Shown: positions 49,350 to 59,411 of the stretch, in pieces
Numbering within the stretch: position 1 is the stretch's first letter
Layout of the letters: each line of letters starts with the position of its first letter
Origin: Leptonema illini DSM 21528
GTDB lineage: Bacteria > Spirochaetota > Leptospiria > Leptospirales > Leptonemataceae
DNA: 64,000 bases
Direction: 5' to 3'
Assembly: GCF_000243335.1 (NCBI RefSeq)
Contig: NZ_JH597773.1
Location: 3,156,156 to 3,220,155, forward strand
The notes under the pieces: model-generated
The model's input: the letters and a program-made list of their open reading frames with translations, nothing else
Database searches by the model: none
What the model was told of the DNA's origin: nothing
Position numbers and translations under genes: made by a program

Positions 49350-50441
49350 TTAGATCGACATGCCCTGGAAGACCTCGACTCCGGACTCTTCAAACGTGCG
49401 GTGATGCTTCATGCGGGCGAAAAGCACGTCCCCCGGAACGACGCGAAGCTCGCGAAACGACTCGATCGTCATCTCTGCCTCGAAGCGTTCCTGCGAATCG
49501 CGCTTGTGTAGTTCAAGAGCGATCTGCGATCCCATGAAATGAATATGTTCGACGCGAGCCTCGGCGAAGGAGTCGGCCCTTCTCTCTCTGGTTAACTCGA
49601 TCTCGTGCGGACGTACGAAAAGCGTGATCGTATCGGCATTGCTTTCAAAAGGCTGCCCGTTTGCAGATGCTTCGGCTTTCGATTCAGAGGATGAGGCTTT
49701 TCGCTGCACCGAGAAGCGGTTCACATTACCGAGAAAGTCCAGCACAAAGGCCGAGCGCGGTCTCTCGTAAACCTCTGCCGGCGAGCCTTCCTGCTCGATG
49801 CGCCCTCCGTTCATGACGACGATACGATCCGAGACCTCAAGCGCTTCCTGCTGATCGTGTGTTACAAAGAGCGACGTTACGTGAAGCTCGTCGTGCAACC
49901 GACGCAACCAGCGACGCAGTTCCCGGCGCACACGAGCATCGAGAGCGCCGAAGGGCTCGTCAAGCAGCAGATACTTCGGTTCGACGGCAAGGGCCCGGGC
50001 CAAAGCGACGCGCTGACGCTGGCCGCCTGAGAGCTGCGTCGGCATGTGCTTCGCATACCCTTCAAGCTGCACGAGGCGCAAGAGCTCGGTCACCTTCTCT
50101 CGTATAACCCCCTCAGAGGGACGGATCTTTTTCTTTTTCACGCGCAGACCGAAGGCGATGTTATCGAAGACGTTCATGTGCCGAAAGAGGGCGTAATGCT
50201 GAAAGACGAATCCGACGCCCCTCTCGTGCAGGGCCTGGCGATGCGTATTCTCCCCTCCGAAGAGGATCTCGCCCGTATCGGGCGTTTCCAGACCGGCGAT
50301 AATACGGAGCAGAGTCGTCTTGCCCGAGCCCGAAGGTCCGAGCAGGGCGACTAACTCTCCCTCTGGCAACGACAGATTGACGTCGTTCAGAGCGACGAAA
50401 CCGCCCCAGCGCTTCGTTACGTTTCGGATCTCGATACTCAT
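49350..50441 (-). CDS. cysA: Sulfate/thiosulfate ABC importer ATPase
   Basis: 363 aa. Walker [17 protein letters not shown]-loop [21 protein letters not shown] as in CysA, signature [15 protein letters not shown], Walker [17 protein letters not shown] and switch [14 protein letters not shown]-like C-terminal domain follows about residue 240. Last gene of sbp-cysT-cysW-cysA, overlapping cysW by 4 bases. Confidence 0.95.
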
Positions 50442-51319
50442 ATGAACTTCTCCTCTTTCAGACGACCCACTGTGCTCGGTTCTTCCTGCAAGCGTCCTGC
50501 TTTCAATCGACTCTCTTTTAATCGTCCTTCTATAACGACTCGCAGAACGAGCGTGAGCACCGACAGCAGCATCAGCGCCGAGGCGACGGCGAAGGCGCCG
50601 GTATACTCGTACTCGTTATACAGGATCTCAACATGAAGCGGCACCGTATTCGTCATCCCGCGGATGTGCCCCGATACGACCGAGACGGCTCCGAATTCGC
50701 CGAGGGCGCGCGCCGTGCTTAAAACGATACCGTAAAAAAGGCCCCAGCGAATGGACGGAATCGTGATGCGAAAGAACGTCGTCCACGGACCGGCGCCAAG
50801 CAGACGGGCGGCCTCTTCTTCGTCTCTGCCCTGATCTTCAAGCACGGGGATGAGCTCGCGAGCGACAAAGGGAAACGTGATAAAGACCGTCGCCAGGATA
50901 ATGCCCGGCGGAGCAAAGAGGATCTGTATGCCCTGTGTTCGCAGAAAATGACCGAACCAGCCGTGCGCTCCGAAAAGCAGCACAAACAGCAGGCCCGATA
51001 CGACAGGCGAAACCGAAAAAGGCAGATCGATGAGCGTGATCAGAAGGGCGCGACCGCGAAAGCGAAAGCGTGCGATGGCCCATGAGGCGGCCACTCCGAA
51101 TACGACGTTCAACGGCACCGAGACAAGAACGACAAGCGATGACAGATACACCGCATGCAGGGTCATCGGATCGGCAAGCATCTGAAAATAATAGACGACG
51201 CCCTTCTCAAAGGCGCTTGCAAGCACAAGCACGACGGGAAGCAAAAGAAAGAAGCCGAGGAATGCCGCCACGGAGCCGATGAGCACAATCTTTAACCAGA
51301 GCGGATCGCGTATCGTCAT
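50438..51319 (-). CDS. cysW: Sulfate ABC importer permease CysW
   Basis: 293 aa with six membrane helices. [20 protein letters not shown] and [20 protein letters not shown] are CysW blocks; [21 protein letters not shown] is the EAA loop that contacts CysA. The C-terminal tail is a degenerate repeat of LKExRLK units ([18 protein letters not shown]), unusual for the family. Overlaps cysT and cysA by 4 bases each. Confidence 0.94.
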
Positions 51320-52188
51320 GACTCGCCTCCCGATTCTTTAAGATTCATGCGTCGCGCCGCCCACATCTGCAACAGGTTGATCAGCCCCATCAAACAGAAA
51401 GAAAGAAGCAGCATAACGATACCGATCAAAGCGGCCGCTTCGTAGTCGTATTGTTCGAGCTTCTTCACGATCATAAGCGGAACGATCTCGGTCTTGAAGG
51501 GCAGGTTACCCGAAATAAAGACGACGGAGCCGTACTCGCCGAGCGAGCGCGCAAACGAAAGCACAAAGCCCGTCAGGGCGGCCGGCAGAATAGCCGGCAG
51601 AATAATGCGCACGATCACATACAGACGACCGGCGCCGAGCAGGGCGGCCGCCTCCTCTTCTTCGCGCGGCAGCTCTTCGAGAACGGGCTGCACCGATCGC
51701 ACGACAAAAGGAACGCCGATAAAGATCAGGGCGACGATGATGCCGGCCTGCGAATACGCTACCTGCACTCCGAGCGGTTCAAGCACTGAGCCGATCCAGC
51801 CGTCTTTCGCGTATAACGCCGTCAGACTGATACCGGCGACGGCCGTCGGCAGGGCGAAGGGAAGATCCATCGCCGCGTCGACGATGCGCCGACCCAAAAA
51901 ATCATAACGACAGAGCACGTAGGCGGCCATCGTGCCGAAGATAAGGTTAACGAAGGCGGCGACGCCGGCCGAAAGAAAGCTCACCCGGAACGACGCAATC
52001 ACCGCACGATCAGTGAGGATCTCGATCGCCCTGTCCACCGGTACGCCCGCACCCTTCACAAAAAGAGCGACCAGAGGAATCAGGACGATCACGCTCAGAT
52101 AAAAGACCGTATAACCCAGGCTGAGCCGGAATCCGGGAATGACGGATCGTTTGCGGACTCCGGCGGTATGCATCGGCAAGGCTATCAT
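51316..52188 (-). CDS. cysT: Sulfate ABC importer permease CysT
   Basis: 290 aa, six membrane helices. Blocks include [41 protein letters not shown] and the EAA loop [41 protein letters not shown] is typical of CysT. It forms the membrane channel with CysW. ATG 52188 overlaps the sbp stop. Confidence 0.94.
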
Positions 52189-53201
52189 TTCGATTCTGTC
52201 GGTTTTGAGTAAACGGTATCGAAAACGCCGCCATCATCGAAGTGTCTCTTCTGAACATCGCTCCAGCTTCCGAATTTTTCTTCGATCGTAAAGAGCCGCA
52301 GTTTCGGGAACTGCTTCTCGTACTTTGCGGCCACCTCGGCATTCCGCGGACGATAGAAATGTTTCGCGGCAAGCTCCTGGGCCTCAGGCGAATAAAGGAA
52401 TTGTAGATATTCTTCTGCAACGGCTGACGTTCCGCGACGCTCCGCATTTGTATCGACGACGGCCACAGGAGGCTCAGCCAGGATGCTTACAGAAGGAACA
52501 ATGATCTCAAACCCATCGCCGCCGGACTCCTTCAATGAAAGAAAAGCCTCGTTCTCCCACGCCAGCAGTACATCGCCCACACCGCGCTGCGCGAATGTAT
52601 TCGTCGAACCGCGAGCCCCGGTATCGAGCACAGGAACGTTTGCATAAAGTTTCTTAAGATACGCTAATGCCTCGGTCTCGTTCCCGCCCGATTGTTCAAG
52701 GGCGTATCCGAGAGCGGCCAGGTAATTCCATCGCGCCCCGCCCGACGTTTTCGGGTTTGGCGTAATCACCTGCACATCGGGCCGGATCAGATCCTTCCAG
52801 TCATGGATGCGCTTCGGATTTCCTTTTCGAACAAGAAAGACAATCGTCGACGTATATGGAGCGCTGTTTTCAGGCAGTCGCTTCTGCCAGTCCTTTGCAA
52901 GCAGTCCTTTCCTGGCAATGACATCGATATCGTAAGCGAGAGCCAGCGTAACGACATCGGCTTCGAGCCCATCGATAACGGCACGGGCCTGCTTGCCCGA
53001 ACCGCCGTGGCTCTGCTGAATGGAAATCTCATTTCCCGTCTTTTCTTTCCAGTGCTTTGCAAAAAGCTGATTATAATCGTGATACAGCTCCCGGGTCGGA
53101 TCATAGGAGACGTTGAGCAGCTCCCCGGCCTGGGAGCGGTTGCAAGCCGATAGTCCGGCCAGAATGACTGAGAGAATGAGCGAAGCAAGTATTCGATTCA
53201 T
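52185..53201 (-). CDS. sbp: Sulfate-binding lipoprotein of the ABC importer (Sbp/CysP)
   Basis: 338 aa from ATG 53201; upstream in-frame starts would place residues before the signal peptide. The signal [16 protein letters not shown] gives a lipoprotein, Cys at about 20, instead of the free periplasmic protein of enterobacteria. Sbp landmarks are [47 protein letters not shown] and [14 protein letters not shown]. First gene of the operon. A perfect 7-bp inverted repeat lies 16-34 bases upstream of the start. Confidence 0.93.
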
Positions 53202-53216
53202 AGAGCAGGCCCCTTT

Positions 53217-53235
53217 TTCGATATTTCCTATCGAA
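53217..53235 (-). promoter_or_regulatory. Inverted repeat upstream of the sulfate importer operon
   Basis: TTCGATA-N5-TATCGAA, perfect 7-base arms, centred 25 bases before the sbp start. Position suits an operator for sulfur-responsive control. The regulator is not identified. Confidence 0.5.
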
Positions 53236-53388
53236 TTAGTATGATTTAACAGGATAAAGATGCCCTGCGAGGCCGGCAACACTTTTTTCTGTCGGCAATG
53301 CAGGAAGGCGAGAATTGGAGCGGGCTGAGGCTTTTCCCTGTAGCCGGACTGAAAACACTATTGACTGAAGCGAGGAGAATTAAACATC

Positions 53389-55598: not shown

Positions 55599-57020
55599 AT
55601 GTTTGATTATCCTGTTTTCGAAGTACCGATCATCGGCCAGAGGTTGCTCATGGCCATCGACGCCGTCACGCACGTTTTCGTTTCGCATGGCGGAGCGGTC
55701 GGCGGATCGGTCGTACTCGCCCTCGCCGCATGGTGGGCCAACAAAAAGAACGACCTTGCTCTTTACGAACTCGTGCGAAAGATTCTCATGGTTTTCTTTA
55801 TCGTCACGACGAGCGTCGGAGCTCTCACCGGCATCGGGATCTGGATCCATGCCAACATCATCACGCCGAACGGAATCGGAAGCCTGATTCGCGTCTTCTT
55901 CTGGAAATGGTTCATCGAATGGATCGTCTTCAATATCGAAGTGATCATGCTGATGATCTGGTTCATGACCTGGGAGAAGAACGCAAAAACCGAGGCCGGT
56001 CGCAAGAAATCCATCATGATCGGAGGCGTGTATGCGGTGTCGTCCTGGGTGACGATGCTCATCATCACGGCCATCCTCGGATTCATGCTCACGCCTAACT
56101 TTGAAGGTCAGCCGTGGATCGATCCCGAGGTATTCCCGGGCAAGGTGGATTACAATAACGCCCTGTTTAATCCGACATGGTTCCCCGGTCTGGCGATGCG
56201 CACGTTCTCGGCCATCGCATTCGGAGCGGCGCTTGCCATTCTCTGGACATGGCTTCTGACGGCCTTTTTCGGACCGAACGACGACGAGGCGAAAGAGCTT
56301 CGCGGAAAGGCGATCCGCTTCTTCGCGACAATCATGGTCGTCGCCGTTCCGATCGGCGCCGTCTTCGGCTTCATCTATCTGCGCTCCATTCCCGAAAGCG
56401 CCATGCAGATGATTCCGACGGCGATGATGACGCGGGCCTTTGCCGATCGCTTCGATCTCATCTATACGATCGTAGCGGCCATCGGCGTGACCGTCGTCGT
56501 CACAACGCTGCTGGCCTTCTTTCTGCCGAAGCGCATGCCCTATGTCGCCGCCGTGGCGATGGTGCTGGCCTTCGCCTCTTTCTGGGGATACGAGGAGCGC
56601 GTGCGCGAATTCGTCCGCAAGCCGTTCATTATCAACAACTACATGTTCGCGAACGGCATCCGACTTACCGACATCCCCTATCTGAACAGAGTGGGCGTGC
56701 TCAAGCATGCGGTCTTCTTTCCCGAAGAAGAGCGCGTTCTGAAGGCCGATCGTTCAAACATCGTCGACGTCGGACGCAGCGTCTACCGCATCGAATGTAA
56801 AACCTGCCATACGACGCATGGCCTCAATTCGCTTTCTGCTCTGACTCAGGGCTGGACGCGCGAAGCGATCCACAACCGCGTCTCGACGCTGCGCTCGGGT
56901 ACGACGCTTTTCATGCCCGACTTTGTCGGTACCGAAGCCGAGAAAGAGGCTCTTGTGGAGTTCATCCTCTCTCTTAACGCTCCGGGCCGCTACGGGCTCA
57001 CCGCCGGAGGTGCACAATGA
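55599..57020 (+). CDS. CydA-like quinol/cytochrome oxidase subunit with C-terminal cytochrome c domain
   Basis: 473 aa. ATG 55599 has a perfect AGGAGG 8 bases upstream. About nine membrane helices. Cytochrome-bd-like landmarks: AVTHVFVSHGGAVGG (heme-ligand-type His), GALTGIGIWIHANIITPNGI, and LIRVFFWKWFIEWIVFNIEVIMLM. The C-terminal 80 residues after about 390 form a cytochrome c domain with CKTCH and a later methionine (LFMPDF) as probable sixth ligand. I link it to the CydA-like OR-C type clade of bd-superfamily proteins by memory of that layout. It is probably a respiratory oxidoreductase at the inner membrane. Confidence 0.72.
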   Translation: MFDYPVFEVPIIGQRLLMAIDAVTHVFVSHGGAVGGSVVLALAAWWANKKNDLALYELVRKILMVFFIVTTSVGALTGIGIWIHANIITPNGIGSLIRVFFWKWFIEWIVFNIEVIMLMIWFMTWEKNAKTEAGRKKSIMIGGVYAVSSWVTMLIITAILGFMLTPNFEGQPWIDPEVFPGKVDYNNALFNPTWFPGLAMRTFSAIAFGAALAILWTWLLTAFFGPNDDEAKELRGKAIRFFATIMVVAVPIGAVFGFIYLRSIPESAMQMIPTAMMTRAFADRFDLIYTIVAAIGVTVVVTTLLAFFLPKRMPYVAAVAMVLAFASFWGYEERVREFVRKPFIINNYMFANGIRLTDIPYLNRVGVLKHAVFFPEEERVLKADRSNIVDVGRSVYRIECKTCHTTHGLNSLSALTQGWTREAIHNRVSTLRSGTTLFMPDFVGTEAEKEALVEFILSLNAPGRYGLTAGGAQ

Positions 57021-58342
57021 AATGGGAATTGCCTCTTGATATTCCCCTGGTCACGCCGACCCTGGGATTGCCGATCTGGTTATACGACGCCTTGCTGGTC
57101 ATCGTATTCGTCGTGCACATCACGTTTATCTACACGCTTCTTGGCGCATCGTTCGCTTCGGTGCTCTACAATATAACGGGGGTGTGGAAGAAGTCGAAGG
57201 TCGACGACGATCTGGCTTACCGACTAACGAACTTTACGACGGTATCTGAGAACATGGGAGCTCTGTGGGGCGTGGCGCCGTTATTGATCATCGGCGTGCT
57301 TTACACGGGCTTCTTTTATACGGCGATCATTAAGATCTCGCCGCATATTCTCCATATCATCTACGGAAACATCCTGGCCTTCCTTCTCTCCTATGCCTAT
57401 AAGTTTTCCTGGAAGAAGATGCAGGAGCATAAGGGGTTTCACATCCTGATAGGATCGGCCATGCTGATTCTCTTTTTCTCGTTGCCCTTCGTCTTCATGT
57501 CGATGACGAACCTCTACATGCAGCCTGAGCTTTTCGGGCAGGTGAAGGATATCTGGGATGTGATGCTGACGCCGCTGACGGGGTTGCGTCTGCTCAATTT
57601 CTTCCTGACGACGTTCACCTTCTTCGGCGCGGTAATGATCTTCTTCGCCACAAGATGGAACGATCCTGAAGACGCGGAGATCCGAAAGCTGGCCATAGAC
57701 CAAGGAAAGAAATGGATCCTGTTCAGCGCTCCGTTGAACGTCGCCATCCTGCCTCTGGTCCTCTTCGCCTTTTCGCCGCGCATCGGCGAAGGACTGATGA
57801 AAACGTGGTTTATCGCACTGCCCTTCCTCGCCGCGCTGATTCTTTTCTGGATGGTCGTGTATCTGATCAAACAGTTTACGGCCGGTGATTTCAGCCGCAA
57901 AGAAGGCACCGCGCTCTTCTCGGCCATGCTCGTAACCGTACTTCTCATGGCGACAGGTCGACAGGGATTGAGAGTCGTCTCTTTTGAAGAGCCCGTAAAG
58001 GTTCAGGCAGAGGCCACGCAGGCGTATATGAATAATATGCTTGTGGCCTATCACGAAGAACGGGCACGCGAAAAAGACAGACCGGAGCCGGCAGGCGACG
58101 AACGGCAACAGTTAGCCGAGAAGAAGGGATGCCTGGCCTGTCACAGCGTCGAGATCCGACTTGTCGGGCCGGCATATAAACAGGTGGCGGCGAAGTACCG
58201 ATCACCCGACGAGATCATAACCTCTATCCTGAAAGGCTCGAAAGGAAAGTGGCCAGAGCTGAACGGCGTAGCCATGCCGCCGAATCAGGTGACCGAAGCC
58301 GAGGCGCGAAAACTCGCCGAATGGATTCTTGAGCAGAAGTAA
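57017..58342 (+). CDS. Second CydA-like subunit (CydA'-type) with cytochrome c domain
   Basis: 441 aa, ATGA overlap with the preceding gene and GGAGG upstream. About nine membrane helices: LYDALLVIVFVVHITFIYTL, FTTVSENMGALWGVAPLLI, ILAFLLSYAYKFSWKKM. The last 75 residues carry cytochrome c motif KKGCLACHSVEIRLVGP and MPPNQVTEAEARKLAEWIL, with Met as likely axial ligand. The topology parallels the first subunit, as expected for a duplicated CydA/CydA' pair. No CydB or CydX is nearby. A terminator follows. Confidence 0.7.
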   Translation: MKWELPLDIPLVTPTLGLPIWLYDALLVIVFVVHITFIYTLLGASFASVLYNITGVWKKSKVDDDLAYRLTNFTTVSENMGALWGVAPLLIIGVLYTGFFYTAIIKISPHILHIIYGNILAFLLSYAYKFSWKKMQEHKGFHILIGSAMLILFFSLPFVFMSMTNLYMQPELFGQVKDIWDVMLTPLTGLRLLNFFLTTFTFFGAVMIFFATRWNDPEDAEIRKLAIDQGKKWILFSAPLNVAILPLVLFAFSPRIGEGLMKTWFIALPFLAALILFWMVVYLIKQFTAGDFSRKEGTALFSAMLVTVLLMATGRQGLRVVSFEEPVKVQAEATQAYMNNMLVAYHEERAREKDRPEPAGDERQQLAEKKGCLACHSVEIRLVGPAYKQVAAKYRSPDEIITSILKGSKGKWPELNGVAMPPNQVTEAEARKLAEWILEQK

Positions 58343-58404: not shown

Positions 58405-58430
58405 GCCGGCCGCACTGGCCGGCTTTTTTT
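58405..58430 (+). terminator. Rho-independent terminator after the CydA-like pair
   Basis: GCCGGCC-GCACT-GGCCGGC followed by seven T. Confidence 0.85.
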
Positions 58431-58583: not shown

Positions 58584-59357
58584 CTATTTATGGTCCCTGT
58601 AATACTCATGCAGCTTTCTGAAGATATCTCGACTCTGCACGACCGTTCCGTGTCCGCTGATAACCTTATCAAAAGGCAGCTTCTCGACGGCGTTCAGCGC
58701 ACGCAGAGCCTTGATGGCATCGACCTTAGCGGTAAAAAGAGGCGGATAGGCGACAAGGCTTCCTCCGTAGAGCATGCGCTCCTCTTTGAAGAGCACGACA
58801 AGATTGTCGTCGGACCATCCCTCGCCGGGAAAGATGACCTTGATGTTGCCCTTTTCAAGCTCGAACTCTTTATCGATGGCGCCGCGCAGCTTCGGAAGCG
58901 GTGTGCGATCCCAGTGCAAGAAGGATTGTGACAGCCATTGATTCGCCTGAATCCAATCCTCTTCGAAGCGAGCGGCTGCGTTGCGCTGGATCAGAACAGG
59001 AATGCCTTCATCAACAAAGGCCTGGGCGCCGCCCGCATGATGCTGGTGTCGCGACGTGAGGATTAGTCCGCGAAACTCCGCATGTGTGAGCGTCATCGCC
59101 TTCCAGAGCAGCGCCTCTGCCGAGCGCGGCTGATAGGTCGCATCGAAGAAATAAACGCCGTTCTCGCCGATCCAGAAGACGCTGTTGGTCTTCCAGAAAT
59201 TCCCGTCCTCGACCGAGTAGATGCCGCCGCTCACATGCTTGATACGTAACGGCAGATCGGCGCGATCGGCCGGCACAAGCGGATCACGGCGGCTGACCGG
59301 ATGGCAGCCGGCAAAGACGGTCAGAGAGAAGGCGATGAGGGATGCAAGCCGGCCCAT
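58584..59357 (-). CDS. B1-type metallo-beta-lactamase-fold lipoprotein with altered zinc ligands
   Basis: 257 aa from ATG 59357; a GTG at 59381 is also possible. Signal LIAFSLTVFAGC with lipobox Cys. The fold follows class B1 enzymes: IYSVEDGNFWKTNSVFWIGENG, then TSRHQHHAGG where THxHxDRxGG is expected, GEGWSDDNLVV where GxGHxxDN is expected, LYGGSLV where GGC is expected, and VISGHG with the last His kept. So His116, Asp120, His196 and Cys221 equivalents read Ser, His, Trp and Ser. Either it has a different metal site or it is inactive. Not a predicted resistance enzyme. Confidence 0.8.
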   Translation of the reverse strand: MGRLASLIAFSLTVFAGCHPVSRRDPLVPADRADLPLRIKHVSGGIYSVEDGNFWKTNSVFWIGENGVYFFDATYQPRSAEALLWKAMTLTHAEFRGLILTSRHQHHAGGAQAFVDEGIPVLIQRNAAARFEEDWIQANQWLSQSFLHWDRTPLPKLRGAIDKEFELEKGNIKVIFPGEGWSDDNLVVLFKEERMLYGGSLVAYPPLFTAKVDAIKALRALNAVEKLPFDKVISGHGTVVQSRDIFRKLHEYYRDHK

Positions 59358-59411
59358 AATCCAGTGAACGGGCCGCCGCACTCTGATTCAAGGCCTTTTC
59401 GCTGATGGCAG

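Follow-up and report, generated by a model that had tools for sequence, protein, structure and literature searches.

Two tandem CydA-like genes with heme c domains in Leptonema illini are predicted to encode a cytochrome c:O2 oxidoreductase of the bd superfamily

Within a 64,000-nucleotide stretch of DNA from the Leptonema illini type strain 3055T (hereafter the window), two adjacent genes on the + strand that overlap by 4 bp encode proteins whose membrane parts both belong, as judged by sequence comparison, to the cytochrome bd superfamily. Gene 1 (55599..57020, + strand) encodes a CydA-like subunit of 473 amino acids that we predict to be catalytic and that is co-conserved with the product of gene 2 (57017..58342, + strand), a CydA'-like paralogue of 441 amino acids; each protein contains eight predicted transmembrane (TM) helices followed by a C-terminal heme c domain. 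We think it reasonably likely that the pair is a two-subunit member of the bd superfamily that passes electrons from cytochrome c to O2, of the type predicted as OR-C, with a heme content, an electron donor and an electron acceptor that we infer from the features described below.

Gene 1 and gene 2 form a closed two-gene operon, given their 4 bp overlap, an AGGAGG ribosome-binding site directly 5' of the gene 1 ATG at 55599, and a strong intrinsic terminator (58405..58430, + strand; an 8-bp GC stem followed by seven T residues) at the 3' end. No cydB is present within this operon, in agreement with the original prediction of a bd-like pair without CydB, and no consensus promoter stood out on inspection upstream of gene 1. 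Elsewhere in the window, an ABC transporter operon on the - strand (49350-53282) encodes two permeases and a binding protein of the SBP_bac_11 type and looks by eye to be of the sulfate/thiosulfate type. A metallo-beta-lactamase-fold protein with a lipoprotein-like N-terminus is encoded convergently with the two-gene operon (58584-59381, - strand; Lactamase_B 19 bits, below the cut-off).

The kinship of gene 1 to CydA is apparent from several kinds of comparison. A search of the gene 1 product against Geobacillus CydA (5doq_A) gave E-values of 4.3e-10 with a single sequence (phmmer) and 4.2e-12 with a family profile. A membrane-only profile of gene 1, from which the cytochrome domain was left out, matched the CydA profile at 94.7% and the CydB profile at 7%, and the best PDB matches of an AlphaFold2 model of the protein were the CydA chains of bd oxidases (probability 1.00), the structure models of both proteins being of moderate quality (pLDDT 69-71) because the alignments are shallow. 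The Pfam model Cyt_bd_oxida_I (PF01654) found no match anywhere in the L. illini genome, including the products of gene 1 (P0001) and gene 2 (P0002); a Zoogloea homologue of gene 1 scores 43.1 bits, above the cut-off of this model. Taken together, these comparisons indicate that gene 1 encodes a true CydA homologue, with a kinship beyond chance.

Among 28 diverse homologues of gene 1, which span three deep subtypes, the alignment points to retention of equivalents of all four active-site residues of E. coli CydA, each invariant (28/28). His25 of gene 1 (55671..55673, + strand; H27 in P0001, whose numbers exceed the protein numbering used here by 2) aligns by HHalign with His19, an active-site heme ligand. 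Glu107 (55917..55919, + strand; P0001 E109) corresponds to Glu99, as judged by its distances from the following Glu and from the Trp that closes TM3, which match those in Geobacillus CydA, and Glu114 (55938..55940, + strand; P0001 E116) aligns with Glu107 of the proton path. The weakest of the four assignments is that of Glu337 at the end of TM8 (56607..56609, + strand; P0001 E339) to the heme ligand Glu445, which is based on position and a short motif (ExxRKP[FYW] as against ExxGRQPW in CydA) and has a local HHalign probability of only 10%. An extra His on TM1, His30 (55686..55688, + strand; P0001 H32), is likewise present in 28/28 homologues, and this position is not His in canonical CydA or in the OR-N-like sequences that we inspected. 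Placement in another membrane family devoid of bd-type heme ligands, the outcome that would have refuted the original prediction, is not what we found.

The quinol site, in contrast to the active site, appears to have been lost from gene 1. The loop between TM6 and TM7, which takes the place of the Q-loop of CydA, spans only about 22 residues; both the Q-loop and the quinol-site residues are missing. The position of the heme b558 ligand His186 is occupied by Met or Phe and is not conserved, and inspection of gene 1 revealed no conserved Met as a counterpart of the other b558 ligand, Met393, TM7 not aligning to CydA. The reduced Q-loop and the unconserved His186 position fit an electron donor other than quinol.

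The eight predicted TM helices of gene 1, instead of nine, would place its C-terminus in the periplasm, the side on which the c heme is attached, and the charges of its loops fit an N-outside/C-outside arrangement under the positive-inside rule. The C-terminal domain is of the Cytochrome_CBB3 type (56766..56966, + strand; PF13442, 34.5 bits, above the cut-off) and contains a CKTCH motif (residues 400-404; 56796-56810, + strand) and a candidate heme c ligand, Met439 (56913-56915, + strand), neither of which varies among the close relatives that were aligned; a CxxCH motif and the Met occur in 28/28 homologues of gene 1.

Gene 2 is, by tree and by profile, a paralogue of gene 1 that is clearly closer to CydA than to CydB, by a distance that is not overwhelming (87% versus 38% at the nearest). 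Specifically, the membrane-only profile of gene 2 matched gene 1 at 98%, CydA at 82-87% and CydB at 18-38%; its profile match to CydA (E = 0.005) is weaker than that of gene 1 but consistent with it, and a Foldseek search returned a CydA chain as the best match (5.3e-5). We considered whether gene 2 might be a CydB and rejected this assignment, CydA and gene 1 being the better profile matches. Like gene 1, gene 2 has eight predicted TM helices with loops that fit an N-outside/C-outside arrangement under the positive-inside rule. Among the active-site residues it keeps only the equivalent of His19 (His34; 57116..57118, + strand; invariant in 29/29), and since equivalents of Glu107 and Glu445 have been lost it is probably a non-catalytic, CydA'-like partner. 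His113 (57353..57355, + strand), which lies near the position of Glu99 and is invariant only in the subtype to which the window belongs, could together with His34 form a putative bis-His heme b site.

The heme c domain of gene 2 (58106..58339, + strand) differs in kind from that of gene 1, being of the cytochrome c551 type rather than the CBB3 type (PDB c551 matches with E about 1e-17; Cytochrom_C PF00034, 30.1 bits, above the cut-off). Its CLACH motif (residues 372-376; 58130-58144, + strand) and its candidate heme c ligand Met420 (58274-58276, + strand) occur without exception in the close relatives that were aligned. Much of what had originally been proposed is retained: two CydA-like genes lie in tandem at 55599-58342, their kinship supported by profile, fold and TM-only profile searches, and their products share a predicted membrane topology and end in CxxCH domains with a candidate Met. 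The proposed CydA/CydA' layout stands insofar as gene 2 is CydA'-like and not CydB, and needs amending insofar as the two proteins are not equivalent. Nor is the heme c of gene 2 general to the family, since it is confined to the subtype of the window and one diheme relative.

Gene 1 is directly followed by gene 2 in 17/17 relatives with complete loci (from Sulfuricurvum, Arcobacteraceae, Zoogloea, Thiothrix and Methylophilaceae), one of which (L018) has a gene 2 split by a frame interruption. The distribution of the family is patchy: the pair was found in 0/60 near relatives within the Spirochaetota, and class-wide samples contained the family in 6/229 genomes of the Methylophilus class and in 24/249 genomes of the Sulfuricurvum class, three of these 24 carrying the subtype of the window. 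In the tree, the Leptonema copy is located among Campylobacterota (98% SH-aLRT for gene 1), and this placement, together with the patchy distribution, suggests that L. illini probably acquired the pair by transfer from Campylobacterota. The GC and GC3 values of the pair look native, so that composition does not support transfer.

Three subtypes can be distinguished. In subtype (a), that of the window, heme c is present on both proteins. In subtype (b), from Campylobacterota and Proteobacteria, gene 1 has one heme c and gene 2 has none or, in one case, two. In subtype (c), from other Spirochaetota, gene 2 comes first and is without heme c, and the gene 1 that follows bears seven CxxCH motifs in addition to its own heme c, the added part including an MtrC/MtrF-like multiheme domain (PF22113); this suggests electron entry through a multiheme wire (loci L068:1498-4158, L070:1498-4137, L072 and L073). 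The Spirochaetota open reading frames of 880-950 amino acids are not fusions of gene 1 to gene 2, a reading we rejected; they consist of gene 1 and the multiheme tail, with a separate gene 2 upstream. Four clades in the tree correspond to gene 1, gene 2, canonical CydA and the OR-N-like proteins, respectively, indicating that the split between gene 1 and gene 2 predates the subtypes. The gene 2 sequences are monophyletic and sister to those of gene 1, and the three subtypes branch in the same way in both, which indicates that the pair travels as a unit.

The genes that adjoin the pair vary among relatives. In two Methylophilus-class relatives of subtype (b) (L074 and L075), the pair is followed by genes for a flavocytochrome c sulfide dehydrogenase (PF21706, PF09242) and a diheme cytochrome c; these neighbours point to a cytochrome c electron source and agree with a cytochrome c donor. 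A diheme cytochrome c gene also adjoins the pair at another locus of this subtype (L079). The RegB/RegA-type redox two-component system that adjoins the pair in Methylophilaceae relatives agrees with a cytochrome c-to-O2 reading. In Campylobacterota (L001:10775-12144 and L006:10717-12038), thioredoxin-like and CcoG/NapH-like 4Fe-4S membrane proteins, possibly assembly factors, are encoded after the pair; neither gene adjoins the pair in L. illini.

According to a 2021 review, the two bd families that lack the quinol site use cytochrome c or another non-quinol donor; the bd enzymes characterised biochemically up to that time were without exception quinol oxidases, an enzyme with another donor still to be obtained (PMC8509429). 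The OR-C family, in the accounts of Murali, Gennis and Hemp (2021) relayed by PMC13189123, PMC11707229 and PMC8509429, has a CydA core, no quinol site and a heme c. The pair resembles it, on a match made by description, in its CydA-type core with active-site ligands, its lack of a quinol site and its C-terminal heme c, gene 1 having such a heme c motif on a CydA-type subunit without a quinol site. For the OR-N bd-like oxidase, a CydA/CydA' arrangement that accepts electrons from cytochrome c has been proposed (PMC10839748, PMC12342949). Although OR-N proteins (of the Nitrospira NIDE0901/Nitrospina type, CydAA') share with our pair membership of the bd superfamily without a Q-loop, they have about 14 helices in one chain, compared to eight in each protein here, and the Thiothrix representative falls in a separate clade and has no His at the His30 position; by these sequence features, the pair is not OR-N-like. 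This Thiothrix protein, a 653-residue OR-N/NIDE0901-like bd-type protein, is encoded just downstream of a small cytochrome c gene (L030:1159-3120), in a genome that also carries a window-type pair. With canonical CydAB of E. coli and Geobacillus, gene 1 shares the fold and the active-site residues His19, Glu99, Glu107 and Glu445, whereas the pair lacks the Q-loop and the b558 ligand His186, has eight helices instead of nine, has CydA' in place of CydB within its operon, and has gained heme c. The Q-loop and heme b558 ligand positions set the pair apart from the canonical CydAB quinol oxidases. The archaeal CydAA' of Caldivirga also consists of two CydA paralogues without CydB but, unlike the pair, is a quinol oxidase without heme c domains.

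We propose that the pair would work like a copper-free cytochrome c oxidase, in which a periplasmic cytochrome c delivers electrons to the fused hemes c, and these pass them directly to two active-site hemes and on to O2. The two periplasmic C-terminal heme c domains would serve as the point of electron entry, in place of the quinol site and heme b558. Gene 1 would be the catalytic subunit, its first four helices and the Glu337 motif holding the two active-site hemes (at the b595 and d positions), and O2 would be reduced at this site with protons delivered through the region of Glu107 and Glu114. Gene 2, an ancient paralogue, would stand in for CydB structurally, and its His34, together with His113, may bind one additional heme b. 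Set against this explanation, L. illini already has genes for caa3- and cbb3-type oxidases, and why it would need yet another O2 reductase is not obvious. We note that the genome, which contains caa3, two cbb3-like and a NorB-like gene, also encodes a very divergent heme-copper oxidase subunit I of 468 amino acids (L025; G000:C1:1929265-1930419; 48 bits to COX1), in a neighbourhood of CcoO-like and other c-type proteins. CydDC is required by E. coli for bd assembly. No host genome had an above-cut-off match to CydDC, the model of which exceeded the cut-off in only five control genomes.

The main rival to an O2-reducing enzyme is an enzyme on a bd scaffold that uses cytochrome c to reduce or detoxify nitric oxide. 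Several hosts belong to genera that include denitrifiers and bd enzymes are known to handle NO, but gene 1 retains every acidic and His residue of the O2-reducing bd site, norCB-like genes are already present in L. illini, and none of norD, nirS and nirK was found next to the pair at the loci that were inspected; we therefore regard this reading as unlikely. A NorQ/CbbQ-like ATPase gene near one gene 1 locus might be taken as a further hint of NO reduction, but we rejected it as such because the wider locus contains RuBisCO-like genes (small subunit at L074:10751-11107) and the ATPase is, by inspection, CbbQ rather than NorQ.

Redundancy with the other oxidases of L. illini, the catalase or peroxidase side activity of some bd oxidases, and the extra invariant His30 would each be compatible with a peroxidase or an O2-scavenging or sensing membrane heme protein that is not an energy-conserving oxidase. 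We give this reading only a slim chance, as the invariance of the Glu107 and Glu114 proton-path positions fits a proton-consuming, electrogenic reaction. A cytochrome c:quinone oxidoreductase working in reverse, without O2 reduction, has been proposed for the Nitrospina bd-like proteins, related proteins without a Q-loop (PMC3578206), and c-type hemes could feed electrons into such an enzyme; for the L. illini pair it is highly improbable, because the quinone-site residues and b558 ligands are gone from gene 1 and L. illini, an aerobic chemoorganotroph, has little apparent need for reverse electron flow. That the proteins belong to a membrane family unrelated to bd oxidases, with cytochrome c domains fused to it, and resemble CydA by fold-level coincidence, as the lack of a Pfam bd match for P0001 and P0002 might suggest, is already contradicted by the profile E-value of 4e-12 to CydA, the CydA best fold matches of both proteins and the aligned His19, Glu99 and Glu107, and we consider it very unlikely.

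Beyond the cytochrome c:O2 oxidoreductase reading, we tentatively raise the possibility that the family represents a bd oxidase that works without quinone and is built from modules, its electron inlets being interchangeable. In such an enzyme, one heme c would be a constant feature of gene 1, the CydA' partner would have acquired a c551-type domain, a diheme domain or none, and in other spirochetes gene 1 would be extended by seven more c-heme motifs, an MtrC-like domain among them. If so, the two unlike heme c domains of the L. illini enzyme would each provide a docking site for a cytochrome, and its partner subunit would hold a bis-His heme b.

Genome annotation probably overlooks such oxidases, since curated domain models find the bd part in 1/13 close relatives of gene 1 and, weakly, in 1/12 close relatives of gene 2. 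This kind of enzyme has already been predicted from genomes, and the pair is a further case, one that is testable in a cultured organism. L. illini is represented by a cultured, aerobic type strain (PMC3746420), and its compact two-gene operon offers a practical target for showing a bd-type, copper-free cytochrome c oxidase.
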